Shown here: positions 17,501 through 26,813 of the stretch, piece by piece
Numbering within the stretch: the first letter of the stretch is position 1
Layout of the letters: each line of letters starts with the position of its first letter
Assembly: GCA_019234295.1 (NCBI GenBank)
Contig: JAFALK010000006.1
Span: forward strand, 1 to 64,000
DNA length: 64,000 nt
Source: Roseateles sp.
GTDB lineage: Bacteria > Pseudomonadota > Gammaproteobacteria > Burkholderiales > Burkholderiaceae_C
Direction: 5' to 3'
Notes under the pieces: model-generated
What the model was told of the DNA's origin: nothing
Databases searched by the model: none
Seen by the model: the letters and a program-made list of their open reading frames with translations, nothing else
Translations under genes and position numbers: made by a program

Positions 17501-19438
17501 ATGAAAACAAAGACGATCTTGGGCGCCCTGGTCGGCGTCGCTCTGCTTGCGGCCTTCCCCCTGGTGGTCAGCAACCCGTATTACATCCACCTGCTGGTCA
17601 CCATCATGATCTACGCGATCGTGCTATTCGGCCTGGACATCGTGGTGGGCGACACCGGCCAGGTCTCGCTGGGCCATGCGGGCCTGTTCGGCGTGGGCGC
17701 GTACACGGTGGGCACCATGGTGATGCACTGGGGCTCGCCGGTGCTTGTGGTGCTGGTCTCGGCCATCCTCATCAGTGCCGTGTTCGGCGCCCTGCTGGCC
17801 TTGCCGGCGCTGCGCGTCACGGGCCCGTATCTTGCGATGGTGACCCTGGCTTTCGGCACCATCATCCAGATCCTGATCAACGAGATGGATTTCCTCACCG
17901 CAGGGCCACTGGGCATCATGCTGACCAAGCCGGTGCTGCTCACGCACCAGCTGACTGACACCGAGTTCTTCTGGGTCGTGGCCGCACTGATGATCGCCTC
18001 GATGATCTTCGTTGACCGCGTGCTGCGTTCGCACCTGGGCCGCACCTTCGAGGCCTTGCGCGGTAGCCCCGTGGCCTCGGACTGCATGGGTGTCTCGGTC
18101 TATCGCTACAAGGTCTATGCCTTCGTGGTCAGTGCCGGACTTGCCGGCCTGGCAGGGGGGCTCTACGCCTTCTCCGAGCAGTACATCTCGCCCAATACCT
18201 ACAACTTCGAGCTGACCGTGCTGTTCCTGCTCTCGGTCATCATGGGCGGTCGCAAGTCGCGGGCGGGCTCGCTGATCGGCGCCACCATCCTCGTGATGCT
18301 GCCCAATCTGCTCGACGACATCGGCCAGTTCCGCGTCGTCGCCGCCTCGCTGGCCGTGCTGGTGCTGGTCTCCGTGATCGTGGGCGTCAGGCGCGGTCGT
18401 CTCACGCTGAAGGCGGCGGCTGTGCCCGTGATCGGCAGCGCGGCTTTGGCCGTCGTGTCCTTCGTGCTGAACGGCCTGGCCGACTGGCGGCTCACCATCT
18501 ACGGCCTGATCACGCTCTTCATCGTTTACTACCTGCAGGACGGCATCGTCGGCTTCATTCGCAGCGCGCTCAATCTCAAGACCGGCGCAGCGGCGATGGC
18601 GGAGGAGGTGCGCCAGGCCGCGGCCGACGGCATGAAGGCCCAGGCCCTGACCGCGCAGGCGGCCGGCAGCGGCGAGGTGCTGCTGTCGGCCAAGCAGGTG
18701 CTCATGCAGTTCGGCGGCCTGAAGGCGCTCAACGATGTGGACCTCGTCGTGCGGCGCGGCAGCATCCACGGCCTGATCGGGCCGAACGGCTCGGGCAAGA
18801 GCACGATGATGAACGTGCTGACCGGCATCTACGTGCCCACGGCAGGCACCATTGCCTTCAAGGACAAGCAGGTCAACGGCCGCAGCTCGGCGCAGATCGC
18901 GCTCTCCGGCATTGCGCGCACCTTCCAAAACGTGCAGCTCTTCGGCGAGATGACCGCGCTGCAGAACGTGCAGGTGGGCCTGCACCACGCCTACCGCAGC
19001 AACTTGCTCCAAGTGGCGCTCTCGCTGCCGGGCTTCAAGCGCGAGCGCCGCGCCAACGCGGCGCGCGCCTTGGCCTTGCTGGAATTCGTCGGCCTCGCGG
19101 ACATGGCCGGCGAGGAAGCGCGCAACCTGCCCTACGGCCGCCAGCGCCTTCTCGAGATCGCCCGTGCCCTGGCGCTCGACCCCGAACTGCTGCTGCTGGA
19201 CGAGCCGGCCGCCGGCCTGACCGCGCCCGATATCGGGGAACTGCTCAAGATCATCAAGAAGATCCGCGAGCATGGCGTGACGGTGATCCTCATCGAGCAC
19301 CACATGGACGTGGTGATGAGCTTGTGCGACACCGTTTCCGTGCTGGACTTCGGCCAGAAGATCGCAGAGGGCCTGCCCGCAGAAGTACAAGCCGACGAAA
19401 AGGTCATTGAGGCCTACCTCGGTGGCCAGGCAGCATGA
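17501..19438 (+). CDS. livMG: Fused LivM permease and LivG ATPase of the branched-chain amino acid transporter
   Basis: One 645-residue reading frame joins two subunits that are separate in E. coli. Residues 1 to about 370 are a LivM-type permease (DTGQVSLGHAGLFGVGAYTVG, ALRGSPVASDCMGVSVYRYK). From about residue 390 follows a LivG-type ATPase with Walker A GPNGSGKST near 427-435, signature LPYGRQRLLEIARAL, and Walker B LLLLDEPAAGL. Between the usual end of LivM and its last helix is an extra stretch with two further hydrophobic segments. A similar fusion occurs in other Burkholderiales as I recall, so this is not a sequencing artefact. The ATG at 17501 is where the permease N-terminus begins. 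Confidence 0.93.
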   Translation: MKTKTILGALVGVALLAAFPLVVSNPYYIHLLVTIMIYAIVLFGLDIVVGDTGQVSLGHAGLFGVGAYTVGTMVMHWGSPVLVVLVSAILISAVFGALLALPALRVTGPYLAMVTLAFGTIIQILINEMDFLTAGPLGIMLTKPVLLTHQLTDTEFFWVVAALMIASMIFVDRVLRSHLGRTFEALRGSPVASDCMGVSVYRYKVYAFVVSAGLAGLAGGLYAFSEQYISPNTYNFELTVLFLLSVIMGGRKSRAGSLIGATILVMLPNLLDDIGQFRVVAASLAVLVLVSVIVGVRRGRLTLKAAAVPVIGSAALAVVSFVLNGLADWRLTIYGLITLFIVYYLQDGIVGFIRSALNLKTGAAAMAEEVRQAAADGMKAQALTAQAAGSGEVLLSAKQVLMQFGGLKALNDVDLVVRRGSIHGLIGPNGSGKSTMMNVLTGIYVPTAGTIAFKDKQVNGRSSAQIALSGIARTFQNVQLFGEMTALQNVQVGLHHAYRSNLLQVALSLPGFKRERRANAARALALLEFVGLADMAGEEARNLPYGRQRLLEIARALALDPELLLLDEPAAGLTAPDIGELLKIIKKIREHGVTVILIEHHMDVVMSLCDTVSVLDFGQKIAEGLPAEVQADEKVIEAYLGGQAA

Positions 19439-20232: not shown

Positions 20233-23211
20233 ATGCGTGCATTCGCCCTGAGCCTCTTGCTGCAGCTGTTCGCGGTTACGGCCTTCGCGCAGACCGAGGA
20301 CGAACCGGGCGAGGAGATGGTCGAGGCCGATGCTCCCAAGCTCGATCGGGCGAGCGCCCAGGCGCTTCTCGCGCAGGCGCTGCCCGAGGGCCAGCCCGAG
20401 CGCATCGCGTTGCTGCAGCAGCAGGCCGGCGCGGCACGAACGCTGGAGGACCGCCCCCGGCAGATCGCGGTCCTGGCCGAACTCTTCAAACTCAGCGCCG
20501 GCCGCCCGGAAATGGAGCGCTGGATACGCCCTTATCTGTCGGCCGAATTCAGCTGGGGCCGCCAGGCGCAGGCACGCGCGGCCGGCGAAGCGGTGATGGC
20601 CGACAAGCGGTATTCGCCGCTTGCGCGCACCGGCGCGGCGCTGCGCCTGGCTTGGTACGCCGCGCAAGGTTCGGACCGCGCCATCGCCTTGCGCACGGCT
20701 TCGCTGGCGGAAGGTATGGCCCGTGAGCAGATCTCCCTGCTCGGAGCCGATAGCCCGCGCGGCCTGGCCATCGAGGTGGAGCGGCTGCAGGTCCATGCCG
20801 AGTCGGAGAGATGGAGAGGCAACTTCGACGCAGCCACGGCCTCGCTGCGCGAAGCGGTGCGGGCGGGAGGCCGCATGCTCGCGGCAGCACCGGCCTCCGA
20901 CCCAGCCCTGCGCCAGGAGGCGCAGGCCCTCACCGACGGCTCTCTGGGCATGCTGTGCTATGCCTTGGTGCGCGCCGGTCGTGCACCCGAGGCCATTGCC
21001 ATTGCCGATGGCTACGTGGCCCAGGCGCGTGCCGGCCGGCTCGGCAATGGGCAGGACGCGCGCTGGTTCTACCGCCAGGCGCACGCCTTGGTGGCGGCAC
21101 AGCGCTACGTCGCCGGCCTGGCTGCTGCCCGGGAATCGGATGCGATGCTGGCCAGCGCGGGTGCGAGTCTGGCAAGCCACACACGCCTGCTCGCGCAGCT
21201 GGAGCAGTTGAACGCGCTCATGGGGCTCAAGCGCTGGGCCGAGGCGGACGCGCTCTACCAGAGCTACCTCGCCGCGGTCAGTGACGATGCGTTGGCGAAG
21301 GACCGTGCGTCCGACTGGCGCCTGCGTGTGCTGCTCGCGGCCGAGAACGGCCGCAGCGAGGAGGCGCTCAAAGAGGTGGAGCGCATTCATCGTTTCCGGG
21401 GCCGCATCTATGGCGAAGACCATCCTCAGACGCAGGAAGCCGCCGGCGTGCGCGGCCTGGTCAAGCTTATCCGCGGAGACCTCGGGGGTGCGCTCAAGGA
21501 CTACGAGCAGCTCTTCGTGGCGGTGCTCGACGTCCCCGGCGGCTGGCTCGATCTGGAGCTGCGCGGTGCGCGCGGCTTCGCGCTTGGCGTTGCCTTCGAC
21601 CAGTTCCTGGAGGTGGTGGCGCAGCGCGCACTGGCCCGGCAAGCGCTGGAGCCGCGCATGATCGAGCGCGCCTTGCAGCTGGCCGATCGCCAACGCCTGT
21701 CCAGCACCCAGCGCGCACTGGTGGACAGCGCAGCGCGGCTGCGCGCCTCTACGCCCCAGCTGGCCGCCTTGCTGGAGGAGGAGCAGCGAATCCGCCGCCT
21801 TCACGCAGAGCGCGCAGGCGGTCTGTCCGAGCTCTTGGGCGAAGAGGATCGCCGACGCAAGGAGATGGCCGGCGAGGCCTTCAAGTCACTGCCCGACGCC
21901 GAACGCAAGGCCGCTGCTGCCGCGCTCAGGGATTTGCGCGAGCGCATCAAGCAGGGCCAGGTAGGCGTGAGCGAAGCGCGCGCCGAGCTGACCGCACAGC
22001 GCGAGCGCATCACCAAGGCTTTTCCGGCCTATGGCGATCTCGTCATGCCGCCCACCCCGACGGCCGCGCAGCTGCGCGGCCTGCTCGGGCCTGACGAGGC
22101 GCTGCTGCTCGTGCACAGTCTCGAGGACGCCACCCTCGTGTGGCTGATCGCGCCCGGCCGAGACGAGCCCGCCTTTCACGTGCAGCCCTTTGGCGAGGCG
22201 CAACTCGCTGCGCGCGTGGGCGCGGTTCGGCGCATGCTGGACCTGAGCCAGGGCGTCGCGCCCAAGCTCGACGAGGCCGAGCTGCAGGCGCTCTACCGCG
22301 AACTGATGGGGCCGCTGCCACTGGACTTCACCAGGACCCCCTCGCTGATCGTGGCCAGCAGCGGCGCCTTGGCCAGTCTGCCACTGGCTGCGCTCGTGAC
22401 CGAGCCTGGCGGCGGCCACTGGCTCTTGCGCAAGGCTGCCGTCTCGCAGCTGCCGGCGGCCAGTTCACTGCAAAGCCTGCGCCGTTTGGCACCGCCGCGC
22501 GAGGCGGACAAGCCCTTGATCGGCTTCGGCGACCCGGCCTTCAAGGCCGCTTCATCGTCGACAGTCGGTTCCACTTCGCGAGGCCTTGGCGCCGCATCCA
22601 CCCGCTATGACGCCGCTTGGGGATTCCGCTATGCCGACATCCCGCCGCTGCCCGACACCCGCAACGAGTTGCAAGCCCTGGCCAGGCAGCTCGGCGGCGG
22701 GGATCTGCGCTTCGGTGCCCAGGCCACGCGCGCGGCGGTGCTGGCCGCGCCGCTGCTGGAAAACCGGGTCGTCGCATTCGCCACGCACGGCCTCATGCCT
22801 GGCGAGCTTCCTGGTATCTCCAAACCGGCCTTGGCCATGGCGGCCACAGGCGCGGAGGGTGAGTCGCCCCTGCTGGAGCTCGACGATGTGCTGGGCCTCA
22901 AGCTCAATGCGCAATGGGTCCTGCTGTCTGCTTGCAATACCGCCGCAGGCGAGCAGGGCGGTGCGGCCATGACGGGCCTGGTGCGCGGCTTCTTCTTCGC
23001 TGGCGCGCGCTCGGTGCTGGCCACACACTGGGCCGTGGATTCGGCGGCCGCGGCGGCGCTCGTGCCCGTGGCGCTCGCCCCGGGGCTGCCTCGGGCGCAA
23101 GCCCTCAGGCAGGCGCAGCTGGCGCTGGCCGACGGCAAGCTCGGGCAAGGGCGGTGGGTGCACCCCTATTTCTGGGCCGGCTACGCCCTTTTTGGGGATC
23201 CGAAGAAGTAA
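20233..23211 (+). CDS. Exported CHAT domain (caspase-like) protein
   Basis: The 992-residue protein has an N-terminal signal peptide (about residues 1-20, ending AFA), a long helical region of about 560 residues with TPR-like helical repeats, and a C-terminal CHAT domain. The CHAT domain keeps both catalytic residues of the caspase-like fold: His852 in VAFATHG and Cys901 in LLSACNTA. The closing WAGYALFGDP is also typical. CHAT proteins cleave proteins or act as scaffolds in bacterial signalling. The signal peptide implies the periplasm. It stands 42 bases before a FecR-domain gene and near a CHASE2 sensor gene. Substrate and trigger are unknown. Confidence 0.88.
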   Translation: MRAFALSLLLQLFAVTAFAQTEDEPGEEMVEADAPKLDRASAQALLAQALPEGQPERIALLQQQAGAARTLEDRPRQIAVLAELFKLSAGRPEMERWIRPYLSAEFSWGRQAQARAAGEAVMADKRYSPLARTGAALRLAWYAAQGSDRAIALRTASLAEGMAREQISLLGADSPRGLAIEVERLQVHAESERWRGNFDAATASLREAVRAGGRMLAAAPASDPALRQEAQALTDGSLGMLCYALVRAGRAPEAIAIADGYVAQARAGRLGNGQDARWFYRQAHALVAAQRYVAGLAAARESDAMLASAGASLASHTRLLAQLEQLNALMGLKRWAEADALYQSYLAAVSDDALAKDRASDWRLRVLLAAENGRSEEALKEVERIHRFRGRIYGEDHPQTQEAAGVRGLVKLIRGDLGGALKDYEQLFVAVLDVPGGWLDLELRGARGFALGVAFDQFLEVVAQRALARQALEPRMIERALQLADRQRLSSTQRALVDSAARLRASTPQLAALLEEEQRIRRLHAERAGGLSELLGEEDRRRKEMAGEAFKSLPDAERKAAAAALRDLRERIKQGQVGVSEARAELTAQRERITKAFPAYGDLVMPPTPTAAQLRGLLGPDEALLLVHSLEDATLVWLIAPGRDEPAFHVQPFGEAQLAARVGAVRRMLDLSQGVAPKLDEAELQALYRELMGPLPLDFTRTPSLIVASSGALASLPLAALVTEPGGGHWLLRKAAVSQLPAASSLQSLRRLAPPREADKPLIGFGDPAFKAASSSTVGSTSRGLGAASTRYDAAWGFRYADIPPLPDTRNELQALARQLGGGDLRFGAQATRAAVLAAPLLENRVVAFATHGLMPGELPGISKPALAMAATGAEGESPLLELDDVLGLKLNAQWVLLSACNTAAGEQGGAAMTGLVRGFFFAGARSVLATHWAVDSAAAAALVPVALAPGLPRAQALRQAQLALADGKLGQGRWVHPYFWAGYALFGDPKK

Positions 23212-23218
23212 TCAGCTA

Positions 23219-23247
23219 TTGAAGCGTCATGAGCATCGCTCTAGCAT
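23219..23247 (+). promoter_or_regulatory. Possible promoter before the FecR gene
   Basis: TTGAAG (23219-23224) and TAGCAT (23242-23247) are 17 bases apart. The ATG of the FecR gene follows only six bases after the -10 box, so a transcript from here would be nearly leaderless. This is a consensus match only, and the gene may instead be read from the CHAT gene upstream. Confidence 0.3.
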
Positions 23248-23253
23248 CGGGGC

Positions 23254-23856
23254 ATGCGCTCCATCCTGCTCACATCCCTGATGCTTGTGGCCATGCCCAG
23301 CATGGCCGATCCTGTTTGCGAAGTTGCCGCGCTCACAGGTGAAGCCCGAGTCGGCGTGAAGCTGCTGGTCGTCGGTGACAAGCTCGACGCAGGCGCGGAG
23401 GTTCGCACCGGCGTGAAAGGGCGGCTGCGGCTGCGCTGCGTGGATGGGTCGAGTCTTGTGCTTGGCGACGCCACCCAGCTCAAGCTGAGCGAGTTCACGC
23501 CTGCTGCAAATGGCCAGCTCCGCAAGGCTTCACTGTGGCTCGAGCTGGGCGTGATTGGCCAGAAGGTGACGTCGGGTGGCAGCTGGGAGGTGCGCACGCC
23601 CAGTGCCGTCACGGCGGTGCGGGGCACGGAGTTCATGGTCGAGGTCTCGGGTGAGCAGGCCACCGCCGTGCACGTCAAGGAGGGTGAAGTGGCCGTGGAG
23701 GCGCCGTCGCACACCCGCGGCATCGCACCGCGTCCCGTGATCAAGCTCGACCGCGACGCCAACGGCACGCAATGCACGCCGCGCGGCGGCTGCGTGGCCG
23801 CCGCGCACTGGTCGCACGATCGCGTGCGCGAGTTGCAGGACAAGCTGGACTTCTGA
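23254..23856 (+). CDS. FecR domain protein, periplasmic
   Basis: The 200-residue protein has a signal peptide (about 1-18, ending SMA) and a FecR domain. The domain is shown by GVKGRLRLRCVDGSSLVLGDATQLKLS and then VRTPSAVTAVRGTEFMVEV with the following VKEGEVAVEA strand. FecR domains in sigma-factor systems are periplasmic; soluble exported ones like this often sit next to CHASE2 or adenylate cyclase genes, and their role is unclear. There is no sigma factor gene nearby, and the protein lacks the transmembrane helix of classic FecR. Its stop codon overlaps the next start codon (TGATG), so it is probably coupled to the CHASE2 protein. Confidence 0.88.
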   Translation: MRSILLTSLMLVAMPSMADPVCEVAALTGEARVGVKLLVVGDKLDAGAEVRTGVKGRLRLRCVDGSSLVLGDATQLKLSEFTPAANGQLRKASLWLELGVIGQKVTSGGSWEVRTPSAVTAVRGTEFMVEVSGEQATAVHVKEGEVAVEAPSHTRGIAPRPVIKLDRDANGTQCTPRGGCVAAAHWSHDRVRELQDKLDF

Positions 23857-26813
23857 TGCAAAGTCGCCGCCAGCGCCTTGCATTCCTGCTCGTGGCGCTG
23901 CTGGCTTCGGCGTTTGCCGTGTTGATGTGGGCGCAGCGCGCGAGGGTCGGCCTGCTCGATCGCATCGATCGCATGACGCTCGATGCGCAGATGCAGTGGC
24001 GCAATGTGCTCACGCCGCAGGCCCCGATCAGCCTGCTGATGATCGACGACGCCAGCCTGCAGGGCCTGGGCGGCGTGGACCGCCGCCGCCTCGCCGAGGC
24101 CATCGACAAGCTGACCCAGGCTGGCGCCCAGCTCGTCGCGCTGGACGTGCTGCTTGTCGAGCCCGGCGCGCCCGGTGTCGACGAGGCCTTGGCCCAGGCG
24201 ATGGCGCGTTCCGGGCGCGTGTACATCCCCTTCGCCCTGCCCGAGGAAGCCGGCCCGAGCGCGCCGCCGCCGCGCGTGCTGCTCGACAACACCTATACGC
24301 GCTGGGGCGGTGAACCGGCCCTGGCGTTCGTGCCCTTGAAGCCGGCGCGTGTGCTGGCTCCTCGCACAGAGTTCGCCGCCGCAGCGGCCGGTCTGGGCCA
24401 TGTCACGAGCAAGCGCGCCCCGGATGGCACGATGCGCTACGACCTGCCGGGACTGATCTACGACGGCGAGGCCTATCCTTCGCTCGCCCTGCGCATTGCG
24501 GCCGCTGCGAAGGGGCTGCCGTGGCGTGAGGCGAGCATCGACTTCGGCGGCGCGCTCTACCTCGGTCCCGAGACCCTGCCGCTCGACGAGCTGTCGCGGC
24601 AGTGGGTCAACTATTACGGGCGCATGGGTCGCTTCGAGCAGTTCCGCCTCGACGATCTGCTGGCCGGCCGTGTGCCGCGCGAGAAGTTGGCCGGGCGCAT
24701 CGTTATCGCCGGTGCGGTGGCACTGGGCAGCGGCGATGTCGTCCCCACGCCCTTCGACGCCGCCCTTCCGGGCGTGGAACGCCTCGCCACCGTGGTGGAC
24801 AACTTGATCAGCGGGCGCGTGCTCGTGCGGCCTGCTTGGGCCGGCGGGACGGAGTTCGCTGCCATGCTGGTGCTGCCCCTGATCGCAGTCGGCGCCATCG
24901 GCGCCTGGCCGCTGCGACGGGCGATCTCAGCGCTGCTCGTGCTGGGACTGCTGCTGCTGCTGGGTCTGCAATGGCGCTTCACCCAGCATCGCGAGTTCAT
25001 CTCGCCGGTCTTCCCCTTCGTAGCCCTGCTGCTGGCCAGCGCCGGGGCGCTCGCGGTGCGTGGCGGCGTGGAACGCTCGCAGCGCATGGCCGCGCTGCTG
25101 GCGCTGCGGGCCAGCGAGCGCCGCTATGCCCTGGCAGCGCAAGGCGCCAACGACGGCCTGTGGGATTGGGACATCACCAGCGGCGAGGTGCACTTCTCGC
25201 CGCGCTGGTGCACGCTGATGGGCCTGGACGAAGCCGAGGCCGTCGGCATGGAGGCCTGGACCAAGCCCCTGCCCGAGCCGCAGCGCGTCGCCTTCGAACA
25301 GGCGCTGCAGACTCACTTGCATGGTCGCAGTCAGCAGCTCTATCACATGCTCGAATTTACGCAGGGCGGCCAGACGCGTTGGCTGCTGGCGCGCGGCATG
25401 GCCACGCTGGAGGACGGCAAGCCCGCGCGCATGGCAGGCTCTCTCACCGACGTGAGCGAGTTGCACCGCCTGCAGCAGCAACTGAGCCACGACGCGCTCT
25501 ACGACCGCCTGACCGGACTGGGCAATCGCAGCCTGTTCCGTGCGCAGCTCGATCAACTGCTCGCTTCCGCGCCGCCCAAGAGCGTCGGTGTGCTGCTGCT
25601 GGGCATGGACGGAATGCGGGCGTTCAACGAAAGCCATGGCGTGATCCAGGGGGACACGGCGCTGATCGAGGTGGCACAGCGCCTGCGCCGCATCGAGGGC
25701 GTGGCCGTGCAGCCCGCACGCATTGGCCCCGACGAGTTTGCGGTCGCCGCTCCCATGCGCGCCGGAGAGACCAACCTTGTAGCGCCGCTGATGGCCTGCC
25801 TTGCCGAGCCGCTGCAAGTCGACGGGCAGAGCCTGAAACTCAGCGCCTGTCTCGGCTTGGCGCACGCGAGCGAAGGCCTGGTCAGTACGGACGAGCTCAT
25901 CGGCGCGGCCGAAAGCGCACTGGCGCGTGCCAAGCAGCAAGGCCCCGGCCATTGGCACCGCTTCGACGCTGCCGAGCAACTCGTGGAGCAATCGCGCCGC
26001 TGGATGATTGATCAGATTGACAAGGCGCTCGCCGTCAACGACCAGTTCCAGCTGCACTACCAACCCTTCGTGCGCCTCTCGGACCGCTCCCTGCTTGGCT
26101 TTGAGGCCCTGATTCGCTGGATTCATCCGACCAAGGGCCTGGTGATGCCCGGTGATTTCATTCCCGTGGCCGAGGCCAGCGGCCAGATCGAAGCCATCGG
26201 CCGCTGGACCTTGTTCGAAGCGGTGGCGCAGCTGCGCCGCTGGCGAAACATCGGCTTCGTCGGTGAGATCGCCGTCAACGTCTCCGGCGTGCAGCTCGAG
26301 AATGACCTTCAACTGCTGGCAGATGCCCGCGCCGTCAAGGAGGCGCTGGGCCCCGTGCCCGCCCACCAGCTCAAGCTCGAGGTGACCGAGAGCATGGCCA
26401 TGAGCAACCCGCAGCGCAGCGCCGAACTGCTGCAGGAACTGGCCGCCATGGGCTTCAAGATCAGCATCGACGATTTCGGTACCGGCTACTCCAGCCTGGC
26501 CTACTTGCACCGCTTCCCTTTCGATACTCTGAAGATCGACCGCAGCTTCGTCATGCGCCTGGCCGCAGGGCGCGAGGCGCAGGAGATCGTGCGCACCATC
26601 GTTGGCCTCGCGCATGCGCTCAGCAAGCAGACGCTCGCCGAGGGCGTGGAGGACGAGACCCAGGCCAGGCTGCTGCTGCAGTCGGGCGTGCAGGTGGGGC
26701 AGGGCTGGCTGTGGTCCAAGGCGCTGCCAGCGGCGCAGGCCGAGATGGTGATCAAGACTGTGCCTTGGCGCAGGGCGCCGGCGCCGCAAGCTCAGGTTGC
26801 GACGGCGTCTTGA
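23856..26813 (+). CDS. CHASE2-PAS-GGDEF-EAL sensor protein
   Basis: The 985-residue membrane protein has one N-terminal helix (about 7-26), a periplasmic CHASE2 domain (about 30-320) and three helices (about 330-410). The cytoplasmic part has PAS (about 425-550), GGDEF (about 560-720) and EAL (about 735-975) domains. The GGDEF motif reads GPDEF (624-628), with a Pro replacing the second Gly, so cyclase activity is doubtful. The EAL motif is intact at 750-752, with DDFGTGYSS and ALKIDRSFV-like segments present, so c-di-GMP hydrolysis is likely. The ATG at 23856 overlaps the FecR stop codon. The ligand of CHASE2 is unknown; coupling to FecR and CHAT proteins is inferred from order and shared compartment. 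Confidence 0.9.
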   Translation: MQSRRQRLAFLLVALLASAFAVLMWAQRARVGLLDRIDRMTLDAQMQWRNVLTPQAPISLLMIDDASLQGLGGVDRRRLAEAIDKLTQAGAQLVALDVLLVEPGAPGVDEALAQAMARSGRVYIPFALPEEAGPSAPPPRVLLDNTYTRWGGEPALAFVPLKPARVLAPRTEFAAAAAGLGHVTSKRAPDGTMRYDLPGLIYDGEAYPSLALRIAAAAKGLPWREASIDFGGALYLGPETLPLDELSRQWVNYYGRMGRFEQFRLDDLLAGRVPREKLAGRIVIAGAVALGSGDVVPTPFDAALPGVERLATVVDNLISGRVLVRPAWAGGTEFAAMLVLPLIAVGAIGAWPLRRAISALLVLGLLLLLGLQWRFTQHREFISPVFPFVALLLASAGALAVRGGVERSQRMAALLALRASERRYALAAQGANDGLWDWDITSGEVHFSPRWCTLMGLDEAEAVGMEAWTKPLPEPQRVAFEQALQTHLHGRSQQLYHMLEFTQGGQTRWLLARGMATLEDGKPARMAGSLTDVSELHRLQQQLSHDALYDRLTGLGNRSLFRAQLDQLLASAPPKSVGVLLLGMDGMRAFNESHGVIQGDTALIEVAQRLRRIEGVAVQPARIGPDEFAVAAPMRAGETNLVAPLMACLAEPLQVDGQSLKLSACLGLAHASEGLVSTDELIGAAESALARAKQQGPGHWHRFDAAEQLVEQSRRWMIDQIDKALAVNDQFQLHYQPFVRLSDRSLLGFEALIRWIHPTKGLVMPGDFIPVAEASGQIEAIGRWTLFEAVAQLRRWRNIGFVGEIAVNVSGVQLENDLQLLADARAVKEALGPVPAHQLKLEVTESMAMSNPQRSAELLQELAAMGFKISIDDFGTGYSSLAYLHRFPFDTLKIDRSFVMRLAAGREAQEIVRTIVGLAHALSKQTLAEGVEDETQARLLLQSGVQVGQGWLWSKALPAAQAEMVIKTVPWRRAPAPQAQVATAS

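Follow-up and report, generated by a model that had tools for sequence, protein, structure and literature searches.

The ligand of the CHASE2 sensor domain is described as unknown (PMC10581220; here and below, papers are cited for those parts of their text that were accessible). Receptors carrying this domain occur beside FecR-domain proteins: the Burkholderia BiofilmReg operon encodes a response regulator, a LysM-FecR protein and a CHASE2 histidine kinase (PMC5192318), and a Campylobacterota cluster, proposed to form one pathway, combines a CHASE2 adenylate cyclase, a cyclic AMP (cAMP) phosphodiesterase, a FecR-domain protein and a TPR protein (PMC9239204). For S. meliloti, one paper features both a construct of a CHASE2 cyclase and a Clr target with a FecR domain (PMC5498481), and yet another cluster has a CHASE2-adenylate cyclase gene behind mtxA (PMC4439547). 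Here we analyse a stretch of 64,000 nucleotides from Roseateles sp. (GCA_019234295.1, contig JAFALK010000006.1, positions 1–64,000, forward strand; the whole stretch is called the window), in which genes for a TPR-CHAT protein, a FecR-domain protein and a CHASE2-PAS-GGDEF-EAL receptor follow one another. This trio is a variation on the FecR/CHASE2 receptor clusters already described, its third and little-noticed part being a separase-like protein that looks exported.

Separase, which is driven by the cell cycle, and Csx29 share with the window CHAT protein a caspase-like fold with a His/Cys pair and a TPR-CHAT layout. Csx29, the CRISPR RNA-driven TPR-CHAT protease of Craspase, cleaves Csx30, which in turn inhibits a sigma factor by binding to it (PMC10028731). 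While these two are under CRISPR RNA or cell-cycle control, the window CHAT protein looks exported and adjoins a CHASE2 receptor. DdvA (8rot, 8rw5) also has a TPR-CHAT part within an envelope signalling protein, but is one transmembrane anti-sigma protein according to its PDB entry title, whereas the window TPR-CHAT is a separate, exported-looking protein. BiofilmReg resembles the window in that an exported FecR-domain protein is followed by a CHASE2 receptor, and differs in the LysM domain on its FecR protein, its histidine kinase output and its own response regulator; a domain scan of the three window proteins found neither LysM nor a kinase or response regulator domain, and the term CHAT is absent from PMC5192318. 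The Campylobacterota cluster likewise joins a CHASE2 receptor to FecR-domain and TPR proteins, but its output is cAMP and its TPR protein is not described as CHAT in the accessible part of PMC9239204. No paper pairing CHASE2 with a CHAT domain, or a CHAT domain with FecR, was found in the open-licence literature, and 'CHAT domain' combined with periplasm retrieved no exported CHAT/CHASE2 system from the accessible parts of that literature. Among the papers listed, none dealt with the structure of DdvA either. A reading of the locus from sequence only had called the system a candidate undescribed one, while stating that CHASE2/FecR neighbours are known in other bacteria. The latter is correct (PMC5192318, PMC9239204); with both FecR/CHASE2 and mtxA/CHASE2 clusters in print (PMC5192318, PMC9239204, PMC4439547), the former holds for the CHAT partner, which no paper that we found names in its accessible text.

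We propose that the CHAT, FecR and CHASE2 proteins form one envelope sensing cassette, in which CHAT is likely a regulated peptidase acting via FecR on the CHASE2/EAL receptor; we put the probability of this reading at about 0.5. It starts from the gene architecture, the catalytic pair, the signal-like N-termini, the association with CHASE2 and the exchange of receptors and outputs, all of which are observed. Working in the periplasm, the exported TPR-CHAT and FecR proteins would act on the receptor's CHASE2 ectodomain, and the TPR superhelix of CHAT would recognise an envelope signal or protein. Once activated, CHAT would cut its FecR partner, or bind and displace it, and the change in FecR would alter the CHASE2 signal and hence the activity of the cytoplasmic EAL domain on cyclic di-GMP (c-di-GMP). 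In this scheme we infer the physical contacts, the proteolysis, its substrate and the direction from envelope to cytoplasm.

Pairing of CHAT with CHASE2 goes beyond chance. In a sample of 200 genomes of the order (CHAT above cut-off in 52, CHASE2 in 142), 22 of 76 CHAT domains lay at most 6 kb from a CHASE2 domain among the CHASE2 matches listed, where the number of CHASE2 domains and the size of the genomes would lead one to expect 0.76; five CHAT rows below the cut-off were left out. These 22 are spread over 22 genomes and 12 families of the order, and all belong to open reading frames of up to 1400 amino acids (aa; 22/62), with none in longer frames (0/14). A phylum sample, in which part of the CHASE2 matches listed were compared with the CHATs listed, yielded at least 13 of 126 CHATs with CHASE2 within 6 kb and eight further families; one of these 126 CHATs (G448) comes from the window's own family. 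Beyond close relatives, where the sequence-only reading had required it, such a neighbourhood therefore exists: CHATs of similar size stand beside CHASE2 receptors in 12 families within the order and another 8 across the phylum. Gene order and orientation vary among the loci. A third small gene with a signal-like start, as judged by eye, stands beside 21 of the 22 order-sample pairs: 14 were labelled with our own profiles, five encode proteins of 236–254 aa, one is DUF928 (L067) and one was read as a single frame with CHASE2 (L062). The pair lacking it (L060) lies where its contig ends. Since related trios recur in many bacteria, Magnetospirillum among them, CHAT probably serves as a functional component of a system that senses at the envelope.

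Other arrangements were seen around CHAT genes as well. In Limnohabitans (L115, 933–13983), a CHASE2 gene is followed by a gene with a Peptidase_C14 caspase domain, a small gene whose product looks exported and three tandem CHATs (964–997 aa). CHATs of about 940–953 aa directly follow a sigma-factor-looking gene and a 174–187 aa gene in L043, L044 and L046, perhaps a DdvA-type arrangement. CHATs of 1784–1892 aa (L088, L090, L094, L095, L096) adjoin a 281 aa gene whose start, by sequence reading, looks caspase-like, and none of them is within 6 kb of CHASE2 in the order sample.

The CHAT protein matches Pfam PF12770 with an expectation value (E) of 5e–49 (167.7 bits versus a curated cut-off of 24). 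Its N-terminus is signal-like (AVTAFA-Q) by sequence and hydropathy, and Cys901 is its sole cysteine beyond residue 600. An AlphaFold2 (AF2) model built from an 18-sequence alignment (predicted local distance difference test 82, predicted template modelling score 0.77) consists of helical repeats up to about residue 600, more than half of the protein, followed by the CHAT domain, in which His852 and Cys901 stand directly after strands 844–850 and 895–899. Foldseek ranked DdvA first (E 2e–12, with a whole-length template modelling score of only 0.22–0.25), then separase and Csx29. In VIA-align, Csx29 8eex gave Z 27.3 (3.1 Å, 340 residues), separase 5fby Z 24.5 (3.6 Å, 315 residues) and DdvA 8rw5, aligned with model residues 70–988, Z 20.8 (4.7 Å, 560 residues). 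When a CHAT-domain alignment was compared with PDB sequences, the best match was again DdvA (8rot, E 2.3e–5), its His and Cys aligned, and Csx29 entries appeared at E 1.6–1.9 only. The protein thus models as a TPR-caspase-like fold of the caspase/separase type, resembling Csx29, separase and DdvA.

All 22 CHATs beside CHASE2 that were aligned retain the His/Cys pair; this set differs from the 22 of the order sample in that L033 is included and the fragment L102 excluded. A further 13 sequences, one of which (L202_0) is not a Pfam CHAT, retain it without exception. Of 25 non-fragment CHATs beside CHASE2, 24 showed a signal-like start by hydropathy, some of them only once the called start was shifted upstream; L084 has no clear one. 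The conserved dyad, together with the cutting of Csx30 by Csx29, favours a proteolytic step, and CHAT is most likely a regulated cysteine peptidase. It could instead be a binding sensor or scaffold that passes its state to FecR/CHASE2 by contact, as its counterpart in DdvA may do. The rank of DdvA in Foldseek, its alignment over 560 residues at 4.7 Å and the large share of helical repeats point in this direction, but a pure scaffold would not need the His and Cys that all 22 proteins keep. DdvA too keeps both residues in the aligned stretch. We consider a scaffold without protease function unlikely, though worth keeping in view.

The FecR protein of the window matches PF04773 (55.4 bits against 24, E 8.5e–15), the sole Pfam family found in it. 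It starts signal-like (MPSMA-DP), and by hydropathy this start is its single hydrophobic stretch, with no helix after it. The export signals claimed for both the CHAT and the FecR protein were seen in this way, on the basis of hydropathy and not of SignalP. A classical FecR has an internal transmembrane helix, a cytoplasmic anti-sigma end and genes of FecI/FecA type as neighbours. In contrast, hydropathy found no internal transmembrane helix in the window protein, and the domain-scanned genes around it (ABC transport ATPase, CHAT, CHASE2-EAL, DUF4019) include no FecI/FecA-type neighbour. Elsewhere in the same genome, L010 (contig C11, 4.5 kb) encodes a FecR-type protein and a CHASE2-GGDEF-EAL protein, and in L009 (contig C83) a FecR-type and a lipoprotein-like gene accompany a CHASE2 gene (1049 aa). 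Neither contig showed a CHAT.

In the receptor, Pfam recognises CHASE2 (E 5e–44), PAS_3 (1.9e–6), GGDEF (1.6e–22) and EAL (2.6e–67). Hydropathy gives the layout of a CHASE2 receptor: one hydrophobic helix, CHASE2, three more helices and the output domains. By alignment, the intact diguanylate cyclase motif is absent, GGDEF being degenerate as GPDEF here and as GPDQF in L033, L110 and L112. Judged by the motif list established for EAL domains, EALIR, SGVQL, EVTES, DDFGTG, DRSF and AEGVE are kept in all four orthologs, the window included. The degenerate GGDEF and the intact EAL motifs make c-di-GMP breakdown the likely output, and from its sequence the receptor probably breaks down c-di-GMP.

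The exact trio is rare. Of 60 relatives, the own genome included, 14 show some match to the CHAT protein, and beyond the own genome only G030 (L033) has a near full-length one, at 55%; with a genome scan taken in, the relatives whose CHATs are 53–55% identical to that of the window number eight among the matches listed. CHAT, FecR and CHASE2-EAL were found together only in the window, L033, L110 and L112, where the FecR label comes from Pfam in the first three and from alignment in L112 (52% identity to the window FecR). As a conserved unit, then, the trio holds in part: CHAT/CHASE2 pairing recurs, but the form with FecR and EAL was found in these four loci only. In two Rhodoferax loci (L109, L114), a window-type CHAT (53–55%) is followed by a different small exported protein and a CHASE2-cyclase; the contig of L108 is too short to read its CHAT neighbourhood. 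The CHAT tree, which includes the non-CHAT L184_3 as a long branch at the drawn root, places L109/L114 within the window CHAT clade (support 100/100). The CHASE2 tree (columns filled in <30% of rows removed; window row taken as residues 16–938, which is too long) groups them with the cyclase receptors L069/L076 (support 96/92). We therefore rejected the idea that the CHASE2 sensor stays constant and the output alone swaps, because the CHASE2 domain of L109/L114 itself comes from another clade. A conserved CHAT beside two different receptors is hard to explain for an unrelated neighbour.

An EAL output beside CHAT was observed in four cases, namely the window, L033, L110 and L112. A Pfam scan of ten other CHASE2 proteins beside CHATs showed a class III cyclase at the end of nine and no recognised output in the tenth (L086). 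In L048 (6503–7135) and L102 (2256–2963), a CRP-family regulator gene lies between the CHASE2-cyclase and CHAT, which fits a cyclic nucleotide output. The small partners are more heterogeneous. A Pfam scan of ten (E up to 0.1) identified FecR in L033, DUF928 in L067 and no family in eight, and 'FecR' was rejected as a Pfam label for the partners of other loci, with 1 of 10 matching it. In profile comparisons the unnamed partners matched each other at 96.5%, and the window FecR set matched a set of two MtxA and seven other partners in the N-terminal part at 90.5% (E 1.4e–6); smaller partner sets gave 42% and 21%. A model of the L048 partner matches the solved C-terminal part of MtxA (4z29) at rank 3 (E 2.4e–4, 20% identity), amid many fibronectin-type domains, and partners from Burkholderiales are 15–22% identical to MtxA. 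For the L114 partner, DUF928 is below the Pfam cut-off (24.3 versus 26 bits), with no match to MtxA. The label MtxA-like is thus tentative for the Burkholderiales partners. An arginine motif of several partners, [VM]R[GS], was considered as a CHAT cut site and dropped, since it may equal the VRGTEF of FecR, which is also present in the L009 protein that has no CHAT.

The mtx cluster provides a further comparison. In Magnetospirillum sp. SS-4 (L199, 1.4–11 kb) and Terasakiella sp. PR1 (L200, 5–15 kb), CHAT and CHASE2 are less than 4 kb apart, in the order MtxA, CHASE2-cyclase, TPR-CHAT (1219–1221 aa) and a protein of 737–738 aa, so that in both genomes the mtx cluster continues directly with CHAT. 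MtxA was recognised in both by Pfam and in L200 also by its match to 4z29 (E 2.5e–114), and both TPR-CHATs have a signal-like start and the His/Cys pair. The 738 aa protein of L200 carries metallo-beta-lactamase and cNMP-binding domains and is possibly a cyclic-nucleotide phosphodiesterase. Like the window, the cluster has a small exported protein with an N-terminal beta part and an adjoining CHASE2 receptor; unlike it, MtxA contains DUF7354, Ig-like and MtxA_C domains where the window FecR has PF04773 only, and the receptor ends in a cyclase instead of GGDEF-EAL. The accessible text of PMC4439547 names mtxA and the CHASE2 cyclase and no CHAT. Terasakiella sp. PR1 has a second CHASE2-cyclase (L202, 145–7011), accompanied by a small gene whose product looks exported and by a caspase-like protein of 1052 aa that our own profile matched and Pfam CHAT did not. 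Plasmids of the cyanobacteria Nostoc (L185, 3810–6161) and Brasilonema (L188, 3864–6191) encode CHAT-CHASE2 fusions, single proteins with no recognised output domain; on those of Gloeothece (L189, with DUF928) and Calothrix (L190) the two lie near each other.

Signalling might also run the other way: the second messenger of the receptor would determine how much CHAT is made or how active it is, and CHAT, as an exported peptidase, would process a surface protein, much as LapD/LapG does with adhesins. An annotated filamentous-haemagglutinin gene adjoins the L185 fusion, similar genes by sequence reading are found beside CHAT in L067 and L008, and the CRP-family genes of L048 and L102 would suit this arrangement. 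LapD, however, has a degenerate EAL domain and that of the window looks intact, and the domain scan of the three window proteins revealed no adhesin or LapG domain. We regard CHAT as an output of this kind as distinctly improbable.

Several observations weigh against the cassette. In a genome scan for CHAT relatives, whose best 80 matches correspond to 78 loci, many on short contigs, the CHAT gene was called in 63 (15 were not counted), and CHASE2 is within three genes of CHAT in 11 of these 63 readable loci, the most distant relatives being mostly without it. Most CHASE2 genes have no CHAT nearby, and the window genome's other two CHASE2 receptors (L009, L010) have FecR-type neighbours and no CHAT. 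The close orthologs L107 and L111 show no recognised FecR or CHASE2 beside CHAT, their CHASE2 genes being elsewhere in the genomes. The His/Cys pair is not special to CHASE2-linked CHATs, as 52 of 54 other aligned CHATs keep it and the remaining two have gaps, and no CHAT cleavage site was recognisable in the partner proteins. Deletion of mtxA in Magnetospirillum gryphiswaldense gave a phenotype close to wild type (PMC4439547). Finally, by hydropathy the L185 and L188 fusions have a transmembrane-like helix between CHAT and CHASE2 and no signal sequence, so their CHAT is probably cytoplasmic, which tells against a role confined to the periplasm for every member.

CHAT could even be an independent neighbour, for example an envelope stress peptidase held in place by shared transcription only and making no contact with FecR or CHASE2. 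The CHATs of L107 and L111, the FecR-type/CHASE2 pairs of the own genome and the distant relatives among the best 80 matches would all agree with this. The strong association across many families with permuted order and orientation, the CHAT-CHASE2 fusions and the re-pairing of CHAT with a different receptor in L109/L114 argue against it, and we hold mere co-location to be very improbable.

The features of the locus are listed in Table 1. The three genes on one strand, the intact His852 and Cys901 of the 992-aa CHAT protein and the overlap of the FecR and CHASE2 genes were confirmed by coordinates and Pfam domains, as first read from the sequence; that first reading had noted neither the degenerate GGDEF nor the helical repeats of CHAT. 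CHAT, FecR, CHASE2, GGDEF, EAL and one PAS model exceed their Pfam cut-offs, and the gap from CHAT to FecR is 42 bp. A promoter and terminator scan found no sigma-70-like site and one terminator-like site (mean of 3.2 in shuffled sequence), and so is uninformative on transcription units. A role in anti-phage defence was rejected, PADLOC returning a single weak local match of CHAT to BovA (19.7 bits) and none for the FecR and CHASE2 proteins, and the trio as DNA had no match among plasmids. Upstream, a single open reading frame (17501–19438) apparently fuses a LivM-like branched-chain amino acid permease with a LivG-like ATPase, as read from its sequence.

Table 1. Features of the CHAT, FecR and CHASE2 genes in the window
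Feature	Position	Strand	Basis
TPR-CHAT protein gene, 992 aa, exported-looking, His852/Cys901	20233..23211	+	Pfam CHAT, AF2 model, structure matches
CHAT protein signal-like sequence, residues 1-19, AFA-Q	20233..20289	+	Sequence and hydropathy
CHAT (caspase-like) domain, residues 682-989	22276..23199	+	Pfam, 171.9 bits, model positions 2-289 of 289
FecR-domain protein gene, 200 aa, exported-looking	23254..23856	+	Pfam FecR 8.5e-15, hydropathy
CHASE2-PAS-GGDEF-EAL receptor gene, 985 aa	23856..26813	+	Pfam, ortholog alignment, hydropathy
TGATG overlap, FecR stop/CHASE2 start	23854..23858	+	TGA 23854-23856, ATG from 23856

Beyond the window, we tentatively suggest a widespread class of envelope signalling systems. 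In these, a TPR-CHAT peptidase of separase-like kind and a small protein of FecR, MtxA or DUF928 type, both exported, would act jointly with a CHASE2 receptor whose outputs are exchangeable, namely c-di-GMP breakdown, cyclic nucleotide synthesis or a histidine kinase. If this is true, CHASE2 domains would receive a proteolytic input and the enigmatic mtx cluster would join the same class. The co-travelling exported CHAT and small exported protein are concrete candidate partners for CHASE2. If CHAT is proteolytic, a periplasmic caspase/separase-like protease would feed second-messenger signalling, and a pathway would be suggested for MtxA, whose deletion gave no visible phenotype.

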